DNA of 36,957 nucleotides from Pseudomonadota bacterium (lineage in GTDB: Bacteria; Pseudomonadota; Gammaproteobacteria; Burkholderiales; Burkholderiaceae_C): positions 1-36,957 of the forward strand of contig JAFEEH010000241.1 in NCBI GenBank assembly GCA_018241185.1, written 5' to 3'. The notes beneath the pieces were generated by a model. That model was not told the DNA's origin. It ran no database searches and worked only from the letters and a program-made list of their open reading frames with translations. Of this stretch, positions 6,502 to 17,151 are shown in pieces (position 1 is the first letter of the stretch; each line of letters opens with the position of its first letter). The position numbers and the translations under genes were made by a program.

Positions 6502-7410
6502 TCAGCGGGGTCCGGACGGCAGTCCGATGAAGTCGAGCACCGGCGGCAGCACCGGCCCGCCGAGCCAGCGCAGGGGCTTGGCGATGGCGCCGACGAGCGT
6601 GATGTGGCTCAGGTCGTCGAAGCGCTCGGTACGCACCGGGACACCCGCGGCGCGCAGCCGCTGCACCATCTGGCCGGTGTTGCGATCGGGGTCGACCAGC
6701 TTGTCTTTGGACGCCGCCAGCAGCAGCGCCGGCGGCGAACCGGCGCGCGCGTGCACCAGCGGCTGCGAGTCGGCGGGCGTGTCCGGCCAGTTGAACGCCA
6801 CCTGCGCCTGCGGGTTCTCGATGGGCAGGAAGTCGTAGGGACCGGCCAGGCCGATCCAGCCGGCCAGCTGGCGCGGACTGGCGCCCAGCGCGCCGAGCCA
6901 GCGCCCGTCCAGCGCCACCATCGCCGCGTTGTAGCCGCCCGAGCTGTGGCCCATGACGTACACGCGGGCCGGGTCGGCCCCCAGCGCCGCCGCATGGTCC
7001 AGCGCCCATTTCACCGCCAGGGCGCTGTCCTGCACGAAGACGGGGTAGCGCGCCTGGGGCGACAAACGATAGTCGGGAACGACCACCACCGCGCCGCGGG
7101 ACGCCAGCGCCTCGCCGACGAACTTGTAGTCGGCGCGCTCCCCGCTCGACCAGGTGCCACCGTAGAAGAACACCACCAGCGGCCGTTGGCCGGGGGGTGG
7201 TGAGGCAGCCGTCTTCGGCGTGTAGATGTCCAGGCGTTGCCGCGCCTCCGGGCCATAGGCTCGGCCGGCGTCGAGGGCGAAACCGTCGTTGGGCGTCAGA
7301 CCGTTGACGAGGCGTATCGGCGAGCAGGCGGCCAGACCGAAAAGGCTGGCCAGGGCCAGCAACCAAGCGAGGCGGCGCCGGGGAAATGAGAAAGGCGGGG
7401 CGGGCAGCAT
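6502..7410 (-). CDS. Alpha/beta-hydrolase lipoprotein (esterase/carboxylesterase-like)
   Basis: This is a predicted 302-residue outer-membrane or periplasmic lipoprotein. The N-terminus has an arginine cluster, a hydrophobic stretch and a lipobox ending LAAC (Cys29), which is why the ATG at 7410 was preferred over one at 7491. The hydrolase core shows an oxyanion-type FFYGGTW (about 81-87, in place of the usual HGGG/HGGAW), a nucleophile elbow GHSSGG with Ser156, an acid region [12 protein letters not shown] and a C-terminal DDLSHITL with the likely catalytic His. These features fit the esterase/lipase or kynurenine-formamidase-like branch of the fold. The substrate is unknown. It sits between pyk and the class I aldolase on the same strand, but nothing in the sequence ties it to glycolysis. 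Confidence 0.85.
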
Positions 7411-7565
7411 GGGGGTTGTACGCGCGCCGGCCGCCCCCGGATTCGGCCGTGGCTTGCTGACGATGGCGCTGAACCGGCGCGCAGCGAGCATCGCCTTCCC
7501 GCCCGGTCACGCGCGTAGGACGCCCCAGCGCACCGCTGAAGGCGACGCACCCTTGCCGGTCGCCC

Positions 7566-10576: not shown

Positions 10577-11482
10577 TCATGAGGTGCCGGGCCGGGGCCG
10601 TTGTGCCACCAGCAGCTCGACGAAGGCGGCTGCGGCCGCGGACAGCGAACGCCGCGCGTCCGCATACACGCACACCTCGCGGTGGAAGTCCGGCGCGGCC
10701 AGGCGCACCATCGCCAGCCCCCAGGCACGCACCAGCGGCGACGAGTAGGTCGGGCACACGGTGAGACCCTGGCCCGCGGCCACCATGCCCAGCGCCGTCG
10801 TCATGTACGAGACCTCCTGCGTGCCCGGCCGCTCCAGCAGGGCCCGCGCATCGGCCGCGAGCTCGGGGGCGATGCGGCCGCGGAAGTCGCGCGTGGGGGC
10901 GATGAAGGTCCACGGCCCCAGCTCCGCCCAGCGCACCGACCGGCGCTTGGCGAAGGGGTGGTCGGGCGGACAGATCAGCCAGTGCCGGTCACGGAACAGC
11001 GTGCGGCGCGCGATCGCGTCGTCCACGGCGACATCCTGGCCCACCGCCAGCTCGACCTCGCCCGCCATCACCCCGTTCAGCAGCTGCTCGGGAAGCGTGT
11101 CGGCCAGCCGCACCTCCACCTCCGGGTAGCGCGAGCGGAAGGCCGCGATCGCCTGCGGCATCAGCGTGCAGGCCATGAGCTGCGGCGCGGCCAGGCGCAG
11201 CACGCCCTTCTTCTTGTCGCGCAGGTCGGTCACGCCCGCCACTGCGGTCTGCAGCCCGGCCAGCAGCCGATGCACCGAGGGGAGGAACTCACGGCCCGCT
11301 TCGGACAGCTGCACGCGGCGCGTGTGGCGGTCCAGCAGCTGCACGCCCAACTCGCGTTCGAGCTCGCGCACCAGCACGCTCAGCGCCGACTGGGTGAGGT
11401 GCAGTTCGCGCGCGGCGGCGGTGAAGCTGCCCGCCTGGGCGACGGCGGCGAAGGCGCGCAGCTGGCGCAGCGACAGATTCAT
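10577..11482 (-). CDS. LysR-family transcriptional regulator of the adjacent catabolic operon
   Basis: This 301-residue protein has the standard LysR layout. Residues 1-62 form the winged helix-turn-helix (LRQLRAFAAVAQAGSFTAAA, then HLTQSALSVLVRELE). The rest is the periplasmic-binding-protein-like effector domain, starting at about VLRLAAPQLM. Such proteins usually activate the operon they diverge from when a pathway intermediate binds. Here the divergent spacer to the VOC gene is only 87 bp and contains a perfect inverted repeat, TTCATC-AATG-GATGAA, next to the LysR start. Control of the 11570-17151 operon is inferred from position. The effector is unknown. Confidence 0.92.
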   Translation of the reverse strand: MNLSLRQLRAFAAVAQAGSFTAAARELHLTQSALSVLVRELERELGVQLLDRHTRRVQLSEAGREFLPSVHRLLAGLQTAVAGVTDLRDKKKGVLRLAAPQLMACTLMPQAIAAFRSRYPEVEVRLADTLPEQLLNGVMAGEVELAVGQDVAVDDAIARRTLFRDRHWLICPPDHPFAKRRSVRWAELGPWTFIAPTRDFRGRIAPELAADARALLERPGTQEVSYMTTALGMVAAGQGLTVCPTYSSPLVRAWGLAMVRLAAPDFHREVCVYADARRSLSAAAAAFVELLVAQRPRPGTS

Positions 11483-11490
11483 GGCAATCC

Positions 11491-11506
11491 TTCATCAATG
11501 GATGAA
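11491..11506. promoter_or_regulatory. Inverted repeat, likely LysR operator
   Basis: TTCATC-AATG-GATGAA is a perfect dyad with 6-base arms. It begins 9 bp upstream of the LysR start codon and 64 bp before the ribosome site of the divergent operon. LysR proteins typically bind such an AT-rich dyad in the shared promoter region and repress their own gene. The dyad is seen; the assignment is inferred. Confidence 0.55.
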
Positions 11507-11569
11507 TTTATTTCGATTGCATCATGGAACCGGTGCCCGTCCAATCGCGCTTCCCAAGGAGACAAGCCG

Positions 11570-12133
11570 ATGCCCGAGACCCCCGCCCCGGCGGCGCCCG
11601 CGAACCCGCCGATCCGCGGGCTGCACCACTTCGCCTGGCGCTGCCGCGACAGCGAGGAGACCCGCCGCTTCTGGGAAGACCTGCTGGGCCTGCCGCTGGT
11701 GCACGTGATCAAGAGCGACCACGTGCCCAGCACGGGCGAGTACTGCCCCTACGTCCACATCTTCTTCCAGATGCGCGACGGCTCCTTCATCGCCTTCTTC
11801 GATCTCGGCGACGACGTGAAGGCCGATCCCTCGCCGAATACCCCCGCATGGGTCAACCATATCGCGCTGCGCGTCGACGGCGTCGACGACCTGCTCGCGG
11901 CCAAGGCGCGCTTGGAGGCGGCGGGCGTCGAGGTGCTGGGCATCACCGACCACCACATCATCGAATCGATCTACTTCTTCGACCCCAACGGCATCCGCGT
12001 GGAATTGACCACGCCCACGGTGCCGCAGGCCGAGATGGACGCGCATGCGCTGAGGGCGCATGCGGACCTCGATGCCTGGACCGAACGCAAGGCGCAACTG
12101 CGCAAGGACCGCGAAGGGGTCGCGCATGCCTGA
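11570..12133 (+). CDS. VOC-superfamily protein (possible one-domain extradiol dioxygenase or related)
   Basis: The 187-residue protein holds one vicinal-oxygen-chelate module made of two beta-alpha-beta-beta-beta units. Candidate metal ligands are His in GLHHFAWRC (about 19-20), His in WVNHIALRV (about 99) and Glu in NGIRVELTT near residue 146. The C-terminal 40 residues are helical and charged. Single-module extradiol dioxygenases of about 190 residues exist, so ring cleavage fits both size and context, but VOC proteins also include isomerases, lyases and resistance proteins. The ATG at 11570 follows AAGGAG by 8 bases. The gene is first in the operon and its end overlaps the next gene by 8 bases, which implies translational coupling. 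Confidence 0.85.
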   Translation: MPETPAPAAPANPPIRGLHHFAWRCRDSEETRRFWEDLLGLPLVHVIKSDHVPSTGEYCPYVHIFFQMRDGSFIAFFDLGDDVKADPSPNTPAWVNHIALRVDGVDDLLAAKARLEAAGVEVLGITDHHIIESIYFFDPNGIRVELTTPTVPQAEMDAHALRAHADLDAWTERKAQLRKDREGVAHA

Positions 12134-13247
12134 GCTCCAGTTGGCCGTCATCGACGTCAAGCCCGGTGCGTCGCTGGAGAGCCAGTCGGGCCTGCAGATG
12201 CTGCGCCCGCGCATCTTCGGCGCCTACATGGCACCGCAAGGGCCGAAGAAGGTCGCGGCCATCGTGATGCACCCGACCAGCAACTTCATGGGCCATTACC
12301 TCATCGGCCCGCTGGCCGAGCGCGGCATCTGCTGCATGGGCCTGAATTCGCGCTACATGGGCAACGACACGCTGCTGCTCATGGAGCGCGCCATCCAGGA
12401 CCTGGGCGCAGGCGTGAAGCACCTGCGCGCGATAGGCTACGAGAAGGTGCTGCTCATCGGCAACTCGGGCGGTGCGGCGCTGTCGAGCTTCTACCAGGCG
12501 CAGGCCGAGCGCCTCACCGCCACACATTTTCCCGACGGCGACCCGACGCACCTGCATGCCGACGACCTGCCGCCGGTGGACGGCATCGCGCTGTGCGCGG
12601 CTCACCTGGGGCGCTCGCGCCTGCTGCGCGACTGGATCGACCCGTCGGTGACCGACGAGCACGACGTGCTCTCGGTCGACCCCGAGCTCGACATGTACGA
12701 CGCACGGCACCGCATGCCGTACAGCGCCGAGTTCCTGGCGCGCTTCCAGGGCGCGCAGAAGGCGCGCCTGGACCGCATCGAGCAATGGGCGCTGGGCCGG
12801 CTCGAGCAGCTGCGCAGCACGCCCGGTGCACCGCGCGACCAGGCCTTCATCGTCTACCGCACGCATGCCGACCCGCGCTGCGTCGATCTGTCGCTGGACC
12901 CGAACGACCGCGCCCCCGGCAGCGTCTGGGGCGACGCACGGCAGGTCAACTACTCGGCCAATGCCATGGGCCGCACGACCTCGCTCACGGCCTTCCTGTC
13001 GCAGTGGTCCTCGCGCTCGCAGGCCGACGGGCCGACCAACCTCGCACGCACCACCTGTCCCAAGCTGCTGCTGACCTACACCGCCGATCAGTCGACCTTC
13101 CCGAGCACGCGCAACGCCTGGCTACAGGCCGGCGGCGCCACGATCCGCAACGTCGACATCGTGGGCGGCAACCACTACCTGGCCGGCCAGCCGCACCTGG
13201 TGCCCAGGGCGGCGGACGCGATCGCCGAGTTCGCCCACGCGCTGTGA
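12126..13247 (+). CDS. Alpha/beta-fold hydrolase
   Basis: This 373-residue protein is predicted to be a cytoplasmic serine hydrolase. The strand-turn-helix LLIGNSGGAALSS gives the GxSxG nucleophile elbow with Ser114, and GGNHYLAG near the C-terminus supplies a likely catalytic His. The segment VMHPTSNFMGHYL (about 47-59) probably forms the oxyanion region. A large insert between about 130 and 270 would form a lid. In context it may hydrolyse a ring-cleavage product or an ester intermediate, but the sequence does not name the substrate. The ATG at 12126 overlaps the end of the VOC gene and follows AAGGGGT. I know of no characterised close relative. Confidence 0.8.
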   Translation: MPELQLAVIDVKPGASLESQSGLQMLRPRIFGAYMAPQGPKKVAAIVMHPTSNFMGHYLIGPLAERGICCMGLNSRYMGNDTLLLMERAIQDLGAGVKHLRAIGYEKVLLIGNSGGAALSSFYQAQAERLTATHFPDGDPTHLHADDLPPVDGIALCAAHLGRSRLLRDWIDPSVTDEHDVLSVDPELDMYDARHRMPYSAEFLARFQGAQKARLDRIEQWALGRLEQLRSTPGAPRDQAFIVYRTHADPRCVDLSLDPNDRAPGSVWGDARQVNYSANAMGRTTSLTAFLSQWSSRSQADGPTNLARTTCPKLLLTYTADQSTFPSTRNAWLQAGGATIRNVDIVGGNHYLAGQPHLVPRAADAIAEFAHAL

Positions 13248-13296
13248 CGCAAGAGCGCGCGATGCGCCAAGAAGAAAGACCCGAGACACCCCCATC

Positions 13297-14934
13297 ATGG
13301 AAAGCTTCCGATTCGCCGAGCCCTACGCGCTGCCCAGCTGGCCATTCGTGCCGCCCCCCGAACTGAACGGTGATGCCACCCGCCATCCCATCGTCATCGT
13401 GGGCGGCGGCCTGTCGGGCCTCACCCTGGCCTGCGACCTCGCGGTGCGCGGCATCCGCTCGGTGCTGCTGGACGAGGACGACACCGTCGGCGTGCGCGGC
13501 GCGTCCTCGCGCGGCATCTGCTACGCGCAGAAGAGCCTGGAGATCTTCGAGCGCCTGGGCATCTACGAGCGCATCGCGGCCAAGGGCATCACCTGGTCCT
13601 TCGGCAAGACCTTCTCCGGCGAGGAGGAGGTCTACAGCTTCAACCTCAAGACCGACAGCTGCTCGGTGCAGCCGCCCTTCATCAACCTGCAGCAGTTCTA
13701 CATCGAGTGGTTCCTGGTCGAGCGCATCCTCGAGCTGGGCCTGACGGACCTGCGCTGGAAGAGCCGCCTCACGCACATCGCGCCGCGCGAGGACGGCGCG
13801 ACGCTGCAGGTCGAGACGCCTGCCGGCAATTACGCACTGGAGGCCGGCTACGTCGTCGACGCCACCGGTGCCAACAGCCCCATCCGCACGCAACTCGACC
13901 TGCCGGCCCATGCCTCGCGCAGCACCGACCGCTGGTGCATCAGCGACGTGCGCTTCACCAAGCCGCTGCCCATCGAGCGCTGGACCTGGGTCGACGCGCC
14001 ATTCAACGACGGCCGCGGCGTGTGGCAGCACCTCATGGGCGACGGGGTCTGGCGCATGGACTACCAGATGCCCGAGGACTGCGACGTGGCCGAGATCAGC
14101 CAACCCGAGGTGGCCGGCGCGCGGCTGCGCGAGCAGCTCGGGCCCGAGGTGGAATTCGAATTCGTCTGGATCGGCCCCTACGGCTACCGCGACCACCTGC
14201 TGGAGCGCTTTCGCCACGGGCGCGTGTTCTTCATCGGCGACGCGGCCCACGTGGTGAGCCCCTTCGGCGCGCGTGGCGGCAACACGGGCATTCAGGATGC
14301 CGCCAACCTGGCGTGGAAGTTCGCGCTGGTGCTGCAGGGCCAGGCGGACGCGTCACTGCTCGACAGCTACGACGCCGAGCGACGCCCGGCGGCCGAGAAG
14401 AACCTGGAAGTGACCAGCCGCTCGGCACGCTTCCTCGCGCCGCGCTCCAGCGCCGAGCACGTCATGCGCAATGCCGTGGTCGCGCTGGCCAAGCGCCATG
14501 CCTTCGCGCGCGGCCTGGTCAACACGGGGCGCATGTCGGTGGCCAACGACTATCCACCTGCACCGCACCTGCCCGAAGGCAGCCGGACGGTGCAGAACGT
14601 GGCGCTGCGCGCGCCGGGCGGCGCGACCACGACGCTGGCGCAACTGCTGCGCGAGGGCACGCACGGGATCGCGCTGTGGCGCGCACCCTCGGCGGCCGAT
14701 GCCGAAGCGATGTCCACGGCCCTGGCCGGCCTGCCCGTGCGGCTCGTCGCGCTCGGCGGCAGCAGCGGCCTGCCGGCTTTCGAGGTCGGCGAATCCGAAC
14801 TGGCGCACCTGGACCTCGCGACGCCCGGCAGCTTGCTGCTGGTGCGTCCTGACGGCTACCGCGCAGCGCGCCTGACCATGCCGACGCCGGCCGTCACGGC
14901 CGCCGCCGTCCGCACCGCCTTCGCACTCACCTGA
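13297..14934 (+). CDS. FAD-dependent aromatic-ring monooxygenase (class A, PheA/TfdB/MhpA-like)
   Basis: The 545-residue protein belongs to the single-component flavin hydroxylases, which use NAD(P)H and oxygen to hydroxylate aromatic rings. Residues about 32-60 form the ADP-binding fold with GGGLSG (36-41) and an acidic end at LLDEDD. Around residue 312 is the flavin-ribityl motif GDAAHVVSPFGARGGNTGIQ, followed by DAANLAWKFALVL, typical of this family. The intermediate DG motif, normally CDGxxS, is VVDATGANSPIR here. A C-terminal thioredoxin-like extension from about residue 420 also fits the phenol-hydroxylase branch. It lies third in the operon, with 49 bp after the hydrolase. Ring hydroxylation as the first catabolic step is a reasonable inference; the substrate is unknown. 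Confidence 0.9.
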   Translation: MESFRFAEPYALPSWPFVPPPELNGDATRHPIVIVGGGLSGLTLACDLAVRGIRSVLLDEDDTVGVRGASSRGICYAQKSLEIFERLGIYERIAAKGITWSFGKTFSGEEEVYSFNLKTDSCSVQPPFINLQQFYIEWFLVERILELGLTDLRWKSRLTHIAPREDGATLQVETPAGNYALEAGYVVDATGANSPIRTQLDLPAHASRSTDRWCISDVRFTKPLPIERWTWVDAPFNDGRGVWQHLMGDGVWRMDYQMPEDCDVAEISQPEVAGARLREQLGPEVEFEFVWIGPYGYRDHLLERFRHGRVFFIGDAAHVVSPFGARGGNTGIQDAANLAWKFALVLQGQADASLLDSYDAERRPAAEKNLEVTSRSARFLAPRSSAEHVMRNAVVALAKRHAFARGLVNTGRMSVANDYPPAPHLPEGSRTVQNVALRAPGGATTTLAQLLREGTHGIALWRAPSAADAEAMSTALAGLPVRLVALGGSSGLPAFEVGESELAHLDLATPGSLLLVRPDGYRAARLTMPTPAVTAAAVRTAFALT

Positions 14935-14941
14935 ATCCGCC

Positions 14942-15133
14942 ATGCCCCTGATCACCGAGCCTCACATCCCCGACCCCGACGGCTTCTACGCCGCGTGGCT
15001 GCAGGCCCATGAGGGCCTGAGCGACGGCGCGAGCGCCGACCTCAACGCCCGCCTGGTGCTGCTGCTGGCCAACCAGTGCGGCGACCAGGCCACGCTGCTG
15101 GCCTGCATCGCGGCAGCGCGCGAAGCCGCCTGA
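14942..15133 (+). CDS. DUF2783-family small protein
   Basis: This 63-residue protein resembles DUF2783 members: IPDPDGFYAAWLQAHEGLS, then LNARLVLLLANQCGD and a short C-terminal helix. It has no signal peptide, membrane segment or metal motif. It starts 7 bp after the monooxygenase stop codon, so it is probably translated with it. From memory, small proteins of this family often accompany FAD monooxygenases, so it may be an accessory subunit or partner of the preceding enzyme. That role is inferred from position only. Confidence 0.8.
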   Translation: MPLITEPHIPDPDGFYAAWLQAHEGLSDGASADLNARLVLLLANQCGDQATLLACIAAAREAA

Positions 15134-15154
15134 ACCCGATTCCCACGATCCACG

Positions 15155-16126
15155 ATGAACACCACCGTCTCCTTCGCCTCCGCCTCCGACACCCGCGAGC
15201 AGAAGCCCCAGGTGCGCGAACTCGCGCCCGGCGTCTACGGCTACATCAGCGACTTCGATCCCAACTGCGGCTTCGTCGTCGCCGACGACCATGTCGTGCT
15301 GATCGACACGCGTCCCACGCCGCGCATGGCGCGCGACTTCCTCGCCGCCATCCGCACGGTGACCGACAAGCCGATGAAGTACATCGTGCTGACCCACTAC
15401 CACGCGGTGCGCGTGATGGGGGCCAGCGCCTTTCCCGAAGCGCAGGCCATCTTCGCAAGCAACGGCACGCTGGACTGGATCCGCACGCGCGGCCAGGCCG
15501 ACTTCGATTCCGAGGTGGGACGCTTCCCGCGCCTGTTCGCGGGCGTGGAAGAGGTGCCGGGCCTGACGGTGCCCACGGTCACCTTCGAGCGCGAGATGAG
15601 CCTGTGGCTGGGCAAGGGCCAGCAGGCCCGCGAGCTGCGCCTGCTGGCTCTGGGCCGCGGCCATTCGAGCGGCGACACCGTCGCCTGGCTGCCCGACTGC
15701 GGCGTGTGCTTCTCGGGCGACGTGGTGGAGAACCACTGCGGCGTGTACGCCGGCGACGCCTACATCCAGGACTGGGCCGGCACGCTCGACGCCGTGAAGG
15801 CGCTGCACCCGCGCGTGCTGGTGCCGGGCCGCGGCGCCGTGCTGCAGGGCGAGGCCGCCTGCGCCGAGGCGATCGACCTGACCAAGGACTTCCTCGCCAC
15901 GCTGCTGGGCGCCGTGCGCGCCGGCATCGACGCCGGCGACACGCTCAAGGGCTGCTTCGCACGCGCCGAGGCCGCCATGACGCCGCGCTTCGGCCAATGG
16001 CCGGTGTTCCAGCACGTGCTGCCCTTCGACGTCTCGCGCGCCTACGACGAACTCACGGGCACCGAGCACCCCGTCGTCTGGACCGCCGAGCGCGACCGCG
16101 AGCTCTGGCAGGTGCTGCGCGGCTGA
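15155..16126 (+). CDS. Metallo-beta-lactamase-fold protein with an altered metal site
   Basis: The 323-residue protein has the MBL fold order: FVVADDHVVLIDTRPT, a first motif YIVLTHYHAVRVMGA, LALGRGHSSGDTVAWLP, CFSGDVVENH and VLVPGRGAVLQ. The canonical first motif THxHxDH here reads THYHAVR: His81 and His83 are kept, but the aspartate is Val85 and the next His is Arg86. The usual PGHG is PGRG. His in GHSSGDT and Asp in SGD are kept. One metal ion may still bind, or the protein may act without the normal dinuclear centre. It lies 21 bp after the DUF2783 gene and should belong to the operon; a lactonase- or thioesterase-like step is possible but not shown. Confidence 0.85.
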   Translation: MNTTVSFASASDTREQKPQVRELAPGVYGYISDFDPNCGFVVADDHVVLIDTRPTPRMARDFLAAIRTVTDKPMKYIVLTHYHAVRVMGASAFPEAQAIFASNGTLDWIRTRGQADFDSEVGRFPRLFAGVEEVPGLTVPTVTFEREMSLWLGKGQQARELRLLALGRGHSSGDTVAWLPDCGVCFSGDVVENHCGVYAGDAYIQDWAGTLDAVKALHPRVLVPGRGAVLQGEAACAEAIDLTKDFLATLLGAVRAGIDAGDTLKGCFARAEAAMTPRFGQWPVFQHVLPFDVSRAYDELTGTEHPVVWTAERDRELWQVLRG

Positions 16127-16179
16127 GCGCCTTTCCCAGATCTGACTTTCGATTCCCACCCACCCAAGGAGACAAACCA

Positions 16180-17151
16180 ATGAACCGATTCGTGCGCGCC
16201 CTCGGCGCCTGCCTGGCCCTCGCGGCCGCCGGCGCCGCCGTGGCGCAGGGCGCCTACCCCAGCCAGCCGCTCAAGTGGATCGTGCCCTACGTGGCCGGCG
16301 GCGGCACCGACAACCTGGCGCGCTCGCTCGCCGATGCCATGCAGCCGTCCTTCGGGCAGCCGATCCTGATCGACAACCGTCCGGGCGCCTCGACCAACAT
16401 CGGCGTCGCCGCGCTGATGCAGGCCAAGCCCGACGGCTACACCATCATGCAGGCCGAGAACGCCGCGCTGCTCTTCAACGAGCACATGTTCGCCAAGCTG
16501 CCGTACAAGCCGGCGAGCGACTTCACCTACATCGGCGCCATCGGCCGCTTTCCGGTCGCGCTCGCCGTCACGCCCAACTTTCCTGCCAAGACGGTGGCGG
16601 AGTTCGTGAGCTACGTGAAGGCGAACCCCGACAAGGTGAGCTACGCCTCGCCCGGCAACGGCTCCCCGCACCACATGGCGATGGAGCTGTTCAAGCAGAA
16701 GGCCGGCCTCACGATCGCCCACGTGCCGTACAAGGGCGCGGCGCCGGCGATGACCGACGTGGTGAGCGGCCAAGTCGGCACCATGATGCTGGACCTGGCC
16801 TCGGGCCTGCAGTTCATCAAATCGGGCAAGGTGCGCGTGCTCGCCATCGCGCTGCCGCAGCGCGCCGCCGCCTTGCCCGACGTGCCGACCTTTGCCGAGC
16901 TGGGCTACCCCGACGTCAACGCCTACGCCTTCCACGGCCTCATCGGCCCGGCGGGCATGCCCAAGGAGGCGGTCGACCGCATCAACGCCGAACTGCACAA
17001 GGCGATGCAGGCGCCCAAGGTCGTGCGCCTGTTCGCCGACTTCGGCTTCGAGGCCATGCCAGGCACGCCGCAGGACTTCTACAAGACCGCCCGCGCCGAG
17101 AGCGAGCGCTGGGGCAAGATCATCCAGGCCGCTGGCGTGAAACTGGATTGA
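16180..17151 (+). CDS. Bug-family (tripartite tricarboxylate transporter) periplasmic solute-binding protein
   Basis: The 323-residue product starts with a cleavable signal peptide (MNRFVRALGACLALAAAGAA, cleaved after about AVAQ). The mature protein shows Bug-family hallmarks: YPSQPLKWIVPYVAGGGTDN, then ILIDNRPGASTNIG, KPDGYTIMQ, ASPGNGSPHHMAMELF and HVPYKGAAPAMTDVVSGQVG. These receptors bind organic acids for TctAB-type transporters. No tctA or tctB gene is nearby, as is common for orphan Bug proteins. The ATG at 16180 follows AAGGAG by 8 bases, in the same leader context as the VOC gene. As the last gene of the operon it most likely captures the substrate, probably a carboxylate, that the upstream enzymes degrade. 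Confidence 0.93.
   Translation: MNRFVRALGACLALAAAGAAVAQGAYPSQPLKWIVPYVAGGGTDNLARSLADAMQPSFGQPILIDNRPGASTNIGVAALMQAKPDGYTIMQAENAALLFNEHMFAKLPYKPASDFTYIGAIGRFPVALAVTPNFPAKTVAEFVSYVKANPDKVSYASPGNGSPHHMAMELFKQKAGLTIAHVPYKGAAPAMTDVVSGQVGTMMLDLASGLQFIKSGKVRVLAIALPQRAAALPDVPTFAELGYPDVNAYAFHGLIGPAGMPKEAVDRINAELHKAMQAPKVVRLFADFGFEAMPGTPQDFYKTARAESERWGKIIQAAGVKLD

Follow-up and report, generated by a model that had tools for sequence, protein, structure and literature searches.

The closest described systems to the gene group treated here degrade phenolic acids and related aromatics. In Pseudomonas putida U, MhaAB, a FAD flavoprotein of 566 residues with a 60-residue coupling protein, is described as converting 3-hydroxyphenylacetate to homogentisate, and in strain LB400 the mhaAB pair adjoins hmgA1B1C1 (PMC3053370). 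Homogentisate dioxygenases are listed among the cupins, and most of the lineage of one-domain VOC proteins is uncharacterized (PMC4250580). No report of a VOC homogentisate dioxygenase was found in the open literature, most subscription papers lying outside that search. Here, we analyze an operon with a divergent LysR gene on a stretch of 36,957 nucleotides (the window; contig JAFEEH010000241.1 of assembly GCA_018241185.1) from a bacterium of the Burkholderiales. We propose, with a confidence slightly better than even, that the operon is a homogentisate-type catabolic module in which a VOC protein would take the place of the dioxygenase HmgA and an alpha/beta hydrolase that of fumarylacetoacetase (FahA), the substrate being a relative of 3-hydroxyphenylacetate or homogentisate. 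The features concerned are as follows.

10577-11482, minus strand: LysR-type regulator, 301 residues (Pfam HTH_1, LysR_substrate)
11491-11506, no strand: inverted repeat TTCATC-NNNN-GATGAA between the LysR and VOC genes, candidate LysR site
11570-12133, plus strand: VOC protein with one Glyoxalase domain, 187 residues (Pfam Glyoxalase, 4.6e-18)
12126-13247, plus strand: alpha/beta hydrolase (AB), 373 residues (GNSGG motif, alpha/beta-hydrolase fold model)
13297-14934, plus strand: class A FAD monooxygenase (FMO), 545 residues (Pfam FAD_binding_3, 1.7e-60; NCBIfam NF006002/PRK08132)
14942-15133, plus strand: DUF2783 protein, 63 residues (PF10932, 3e-24)
15155-16126, plus strand: protein of the metallo-beta-lactamase fold (MBL), 323 residues (Pfam Lactamase_B, 2e-15)
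16180-17151, plus strand: Bug/TctC periplasmic binding protein, 323 residues (PF03401, TctC, 4e-79)

The VOC and AB genes overlap by 8 bp, and the remaining gaps are 49 bp (AB-FMO), 7 bp (FMO-DUF2783), 21 bp (DUF2783-MBL) and 53 bp (MBL-Bug). These coordinates bear out a preliminary description, made from the sequence alone, of six genes packed by overlaps or short spacers and diverging from a LysR gene. Its term "one-module" VOC protein holds in that a single Glyoxalase match is found, spanning residues 17-146, although "one-domain" is the better word.

One body of evidence concerns the enzyme that occupies the ring-cleavage slot in related loci. A survey of DUF2783 genes read 39 loci of the 58 places listed. 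HmgA is the dioxygenase in 11 of them, a VOC in 18 and an HmgA-like cupin in 3, and 7 lack all of these; the proportions are not a census, the 18 VOC loci having been chosen for VOC proximity. No locus has two dioxygenase types. Eight genomes (G073, G143, G176, G182, G198, G218, G298 and G322) have FMO, VOC and FahA together, the group in G322 being split over two contigs and joined by a reading of positions. None of the eight has a PF04209 HmgA match at E 0.001, fumarylacetoacetase is present in 8/8, and 4-hydroxyphenylpyruvate dioxygenase (HPPD) in 5/8. Within the genus g66, three species have the VOC and no HmgA, and three have HmgA and no VOC. An HPPD-VOC-FahA-MaiA group is found in G093, with no HmgA match.

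The same alternation appears in a census of 300 genomes of the order. VOC matches at E <1e-60 occur in 44 genomes, with weaker matches in 20 more; HmgA (strong PF04209) occurs in 53, weak HmgA-like cupins in 12 and HPPD in 82. HPPD accompanies 37 of the 44 VOC genomes vs 45 of the 256 others; conversely, the VOC is found in 37 genomes with HPPD vs 7 of the 218 without it. The 82 HPPD genomes divide into 42 with HmgA, 28 with a VOC and no HmgA-type match, 6 with only a weak HmgA-like cupin and 6 with none of these, and the 28 are spread over 17 genera and 10 families. A side observation is that G067, G112, G155, G152, G269 and G056 encode, within 2 kb of HPPD, a cupin distantly like HmgA (PF04209, E 3e-6 to 7e-4), which is possibly a second HmgA substitute.

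In ten genomes (G093, G096, G103, G140, G147, G186, G222, G253, G313 and G165; among the loci L165, L167, L168 and L169), the VOC gene lies 3' of HPPD on the same strand, at 16-209 bp in nine and at 1.6 kb in one, where the interval holds a transporter-like frame; 0/10 have HmgA. A VOC family protein stands beside HPPD in L252 and L254, too, with an FAH-type hydrolase and/or MaiA near by where the stretch was read, and also on plasmids of Acinetobacter and Ideonella. The order in L167 is FAA hydrolase-HPPD-VOC-MaiA, and in L167, L168, L169 and L170 the VOC occurs with an FAA hydrolase (PF01557/PF18288), three of these four loci also having HPPD and three MaiA. Annotated records give hppD-VOC-fahA in Ideonella dechloratans, MBL-FMO-DUF2783-Bug-VOC-fahA in Sphaerotilus sulfidivorans, and fahA-maiA-VOC near hppD in Acinetobacter baumannii, and for these loci they carry only the label "VOC family protein". 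In the HPPD-VOC groups, the VOC is the sole enzyme without a step, and homogentisate cleavage is the sole step without an enzyme. Because 28 HPPD genomes have only the VOC and ten have it after HPPD on the same strand, the VOC family of the window probably contains an unrecognized homogentisate dioxygenase.

The VOC protein itself has a complete extradiol-type site. Residues H20, H97 and E145, which we take, on the model of known type I dioxygenases, to be metal ligands, and H63, H128 and Y135, presumably the second-shell histidines and tyrosine of the type I extradiol set, are invariant in 64/64 aligned VOC sequences. A PROSITE-like extradiol signature is found in 58 of the 64, the window protein included, and in 1 of 20,000 shuffles. 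The solved relative 9u42, named "Glyoxalase", matches the window VOC at E 3e-39 and is closer to a VOC adjoining HPPD (E 1e-84); a fold model from the single sequence has a mean pLDDT of 43.9. We propose that the VOC would act on a homogentisate-type diol as a ring-cleavage dioxygenase of type I.

Several observations weigh against this reading and against its extension to the window. In a VOC tree of 142 sequences, in which the deep forks are weak, a single 34-row clade (support 100/90) takes in every VOC of an HPPD-linked locus, along with the VOCs of FMO-DUF2783-VOC-FahA operons. The window VOC lies outside this clade and is grouped with the VOCs of AB operons and with VOCs adjacent to valS (see below) from Acidovorax, Delftia, Comamonas, Hydrogenophaga, Polaromonas and Ramlibacter. 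The FMOs split in the same way, the window FMO standing in a 35-row sister clade, outside the clade of the FMOs beside HmgA. Since both proteins are outside the clades linked to HPPD and HmgA, their function may differ. Nine HPPD genomes carry both HmgA and the VOC, and in G328 (G328:C44, L256) one LysR-linked cluster holds the VOC and, 1.5 kb away, HmgA and FahA. Six HPPD genomes have neither an HmgA type nor the VOC, and HPPD therefore does not demand a known dioxygenase. A VOC-FahA pair stands beside MBL, without FMO, in G258 and G051, with HmgA elsewhere in the genome. The Fisher tests, 9e-18 for the VOC with HPPD and 2e-5 for the VOC against HmgA within HPPD genomes, ignore phylogeny, and some searches scored only the best 6-10 candidates per genome. 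As to AB, the nearest folds in a structural search are feruloyl and other carboxylesterases and lipases, and in 9/24 AB loci the stretch read holds no dioxygenase of the types sought.

The group to which the window VOC belongs has links of its own to homogentisate genes. Named loci were gathered by a profile search with the VOC alignment, and the best 80 of 514 matches were examined: fumarylacetoacetase directly follows the VOC in 8, AB is present in 27, and no locus has both. The eight fumarylacetoacetase loci belong to Paraburkholderia diazotrophica, P. silvatlantica, P. humisilvae, Caballeronia jiangsuensis, Burkholderia sp. L27, Hydrogenophaga palleronii and two metagenome-assembled genomes of Comamonadaceae, and their VOCs are 58-68% identical to that of the window and lie outside the 34-row clade. 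In Nitratireductor soli, a VOC (67% identical to the window's), FMO, DUF2783 and MBL stand beside a divergent MaiA. Delftia tsuruhatensis NBRC 16741 (G168) and G128 have HPPD, fumarylacetoacetase and an FMO of the homogentisate clade, with no HmgA match; the sole VOC match, of the valS type in both, is 62% identical to the window's in G168 and 60% in G128. Delftia acidovorans is, we assume, the present name of Pseudomonas acidovorans. A homogentisate route has been noted in the latter species (PMC3053370). Given the eight VOC-fumarylacetoacetase loci and the gene sets of Delftia and G128, cleavage of the homogentisate type is plausible for either VOC group; to the window it may be extended with less certainty. 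An overlooked family of homogentisate dioxygenases is better supported than the exact reaction in the window.

A frame of ~1000 residues beside many of these VOCs was first taken as a pathway gene and was rejected, since it reads as what we take, judging by eye, to be valyl-tRNA synthetase (valS); those VOCs therefore merely hold a fixed chromosomal place. The VOC, with or without FMO-DUF2783, adjoins valS in many Comamonadaceae (L043, L080, L081, L131, L133, L134 and L182-L186).

Further evidence comes from the hydroxylase module. The window FMO scores 513.8 bits against NCBIfam NF006002/PRK08132 (cut-off 416) and is of the same subfamily as the FMO adjoining hmgA/fahA in L107. Among the DUF2783 loci read, FMO is present in 38/39 (the exception is L097), MBL in 27/39 and FahA in 16/39; AB is present in 0/39. 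Roseomonas has the order hmgA-fahA-maiA-FMO-DUF2783-MBL-Bug. The statement in the preliminary description that the gene set does not match the homogentisate pathway overlooks the nearest relative of the set, since many genomes have FMO-DUF2783-MBL as the hydroxylase module next to hmgA/fahA, and in others HmgA is replaced by the VOC family. DUF2783 proteins keep D13, F15, N35, L42 and A59 in 48/48 aligned sequences. With an FMO of 545 residues, a gap of 7 bp and a DUF2783 protein of 63 residues, the window matches the MhaAB layout. Because of the FMO-DUF2783 pairing in 38/39 loci and the description of MhaAB, we propose that DUF2783 would be an MhaB-type coupling protein of the FMO; the FMO, set against MhaA/MhaB by description and size, would be an MhaA-like hydroxylase.

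Canonical MBL proteins carry the metal-ligand motifs HxHxDH and PGHG. The window MBL does not match these dinuclear motifs: it has HYHAVR and PGRG, the altered metal site that had been noticed earlier. The altered V, R and R are found in 46/47 aligned homologues, the window protein included, and are a family feature; the solved relative 8d2z (E 4e-101) has the same HYHAVR and PGRG. Three histidines and one aspartate are kept in 46-47 of the 47 sequences. Since these are kept and the other ligands are gone almost family-wide, one metal ion is expected.

No Pfam or NCBIfam family matches AB at E 0.001, and no match to a solved structure was found by sequence at the thresholds used. The GNSGG motif named in the preliminary description is present; its serine, S114, together with D321 and H350, is invariant in 14/14 and 21/21 aligned sequences, and motif and position suggest that the three form a Ser-Asp-His triad. 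The predicted model (pLDDT 84.5) has the alpha/beta-hydrolase fold, and a Foldseek search with it yields general relatives of this fold, the best being esterases and lipases; the C-C hydrolase BphD appears at rank 38, a low rank that excludes nothing. Twenty-four AB loci were compared: a VOC is present in 12 and an HmgA-like cupin in 3, one of them the source of the cupin query. Cupins of this kind accompany AB in Rhodococcus (L049, L057) and in G306 (L127). No fumarylacetoacetase at >=45% identity is found in the 24, which have two weaker FAH-family matches. AB is proposed to be a hydrolase of the ring-fission product, which would act in place of fumarylacetoacetase.

The reactions and the substrate, which we infer from the observed gene content, residues, gene order and exchange of enzymes in relatives, would be as follows. 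LysR would switch the operon on and Bug would bind an aromatic acid. FMO and DUF2783, acting like MhaAB, would hydroxylate a phenolic substrate, probably one resembling an arylacetate, to a para-diol, whose ring the VOC, as HmgA stand-in, would open next to the side chain. AB, as stand-in for fumarylacetoacetase, would split the resulting diketo acid, and MBL would probably carry out a hydrolytic step tied to the hydroxylase module. The operon genes include neither fumarylacetoacetase nor maleylacetoacetate isomerase. In the window's genome (G000), the above-cut-off FahA matches are on contigs C9 and C146, and the only PF04209 match is on C9, with none on the window's contig. Because this separate DUF2783-HmgA-FahA cluster exists in the same genome, the substrate would be related to 3-hydroxyphenylacetate or homogentisate and would be neither of these compounds itself. 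The C9 cluster (L032) begins at the contig edge and reads DUF2783-HmgA-Bug-FahA-Bug; G008 (L130) has a complete counterpart, MBL-FMO-DUF2783-HmgA-Bug-FahA.

The sequence of uptake, hydroxylation, cleavage and hydrolysis that the preliminary description gave to this LysR-linked operon fits its gene content and conservation, and the question is which ring is opened. That description suggested a compact meta-cleavage route, in which FMO would form a catechol or triol, the VOC would perform extradiol cleavage and AB would be the C-C hydrolase. The VOC carries every residue of the type I extradiol set as well as the PROSITE-like signature, AB is paired with a VOC in 12/24 AB loci, and hcdABC of Pseudomonas mandelii has the same order of functions, namely a FAD hydroxylase, a type I extradiol dioxygenase and a hydrolase, the ring cleaved being that of 3-(2,3,5-trihydroxyphenyl)propionate (PMC6222606). 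The complete extradiol-type site speaks for this route; however, the genome context favors a homogentisate-type para-diol. Gene clusters for homogentisate include relatives of the VOC and of FMO-DUF2783, and fumarylacetoacetase comes next after VOCs close to that of the window. No meta-pathway gene was recognized in a scan of ten flanking frames, four of them without a match. We regard catecholic meta-cleavage, which with the flavonoid route is one of the two main rivals, as unlikely.

The same flanking scan bears on degradation of a flavonoid or isoflavonoid A-ring in the manner of fde/ifc, with FMO hydroxylating C8, an FdeC/IfcB-type VOC opening the A ring and a hydrolase next. The window belongs to Variovorax/Xenophilus-like Comamonadaceae, and in Variovorax V35 the ifc cluster is described as holding an FMO, a VOC with 65.8% identity to FdeC, and a gene for an alpha/beta hydrolase that could be disrupted without effect (PMC11069340). 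However, ifc has two cupins (IfcD1/D2) and neither the operon nor the ten frames scanned (four without a match) has one, and the main text of the ifc paper does not name DUF2783 (PMC11069340). This route seems improbable. The operon could otherwise be an isofunctional second copy of the 3-hydroxyphenylacetate/homogentisate pathway, as it has the same FMO-DUF2783-MBL-Bug module together with the HmgA-replacing VOC family, and in G168 and G128 the sole candidate found for a homogentisate dioxygenase is a VOC of the window group. Against this, the window FMO is in another clade, and a second copy would be redundant, because HmgA and FahA are present in all six operon-bearing genomes of the genus that were tested (the FahA frame of G002 holds a stop); we consider it improbable, too. 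We favor a homogentisate-type module acting on a related substrate.

The gene-neighborhood search that the preliminary description called for supports the operon as a unit. The seven-gene order and orientation, with LysR divergent from VOC, are kept in 10/15 genomes of the genus, its own included (G000, G001, G002, G005, G008 and G010-G014); in the remaining five, no VOC of this family was found at E 1e-12. The dN/dS values are 0.03-0.17 against L033 (seven genes) and 0.18-0.32 against L036 (six genes compared), and the operon is probably functional. In L036 (G005), a second FMO, just 36% identical, lies directly downstream of the operon's Bug (11259-12929). Among the best 80 of the 514 loci, VOC-AB-FMO-DUF2783-MBL-Bug is found in six named ones (Xenophilus sp. 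E41 and Variovorax sp. OK212, E3, CF079, OV329 and J22P240), and VOC-AB-FMO-DUF2783 in a Rhizobacter metagenome-assembled genome (L195). WDL1 and WS11 have VOC-AB-FMO, with DUF2783, MBL and Bug not detected; L180 has the VOC and a shortened AB frame, with FMO not detected; and in L178 the gene run leaves the contig end. Plasmids of Variovorax SRS16 and PBL-E5 carry Bug-VOC-AB-FMO-DUF2783, without MBL. The steadiest core is VOC-AB-FMO, and MBL and Bug are variable.

Upstream of the VOC gene, the arms of the repeat, TTCATC and GATGAA, are identical in 6/6 aligned LysR/VOC intergenic regions, every one from the same genus, and the spacer differs in one of the six; the repeat is a candidate LysR site. 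The operon is flanked by pyruvate kinase and phosphoglycerate kinase genes on one side and by azlD/azlC and a formyltransferase gene on the other. Adjoining the pyruvate kinase gene is an esterase-type alpha/beta hydrolase (BD-FAE/Abhydrolase_3; 6502-7491, minus strand), for which no link to the operon was seen.

A broader proposal, in which our confidence falls a little short of even, is that the one-domain VOC family is an unrecognized class of homogentisate-type dioxygenase that replaces HmgA in Burkholderiales, Acinetobacter and others, the window operon being its most rebuilt form, in which fumarylacetoacetase would also be replaced, by an AB without a named family, in a new para-diol pathway. 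If so, the missing homogentisate-cleaving enzyme would be named in many tyrosine-degrading bacteria without HmgA, DUF2783 would gain a function as coupling protein of FAD hydroxylases, and a family of alpha/beta hydrolases would be marked as a substitute for fumarylacetoacetase.

Compared by description, ifc/fde of Variovorax V35 and Herbaspirillum share with the window the combination of FMO, VOC and alpha/beta hydrolase; unlike in the window, two cupins act after the VOC, and DUF2783 is not named in that description. The hcdABC genes for 7-hydroxycoumarin degradation in P. mandelii 7HK4, also compared by description, likewise have an FMO, a type I extradiol dioxygenase and a hydrolase in one operon, whose description mentions no DUF2783, MBL or Bug. 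HcdA is given as 62 kDa and HcdC as 31.2 kDa (PMC6222606); the 20-kDa band would then be HcdB, of the size of a one-domain VOC. The HPPD-VOC-FAH/MaiA tyrosine groups of Ideonella, Acinetobacter and others have a one-domain VOC of the same family in the dioxygenase slot; they differ from the window in that their VOC is ~40-50% identical to the window's, their hydrolase is of the FAH type, and they have no FMO, DUF2783 or AB. In contrast to mhaAB-hmgABC of P. putida U and P. xenovorans LB400, the window has the VOC for HmgA and AB for fumarylacetoacetase and maleylacetoacetate isomerase, and its FMO and VOC fall in separate clades. It resembles that system, as described, in the FAD monooxygenase directly followed by a protein of ~60 residues, and relatives have the same FMO subfamily and DUF2783 next to hmgA/fahA, frequently accompanied by the same MBL and a Bug gene.

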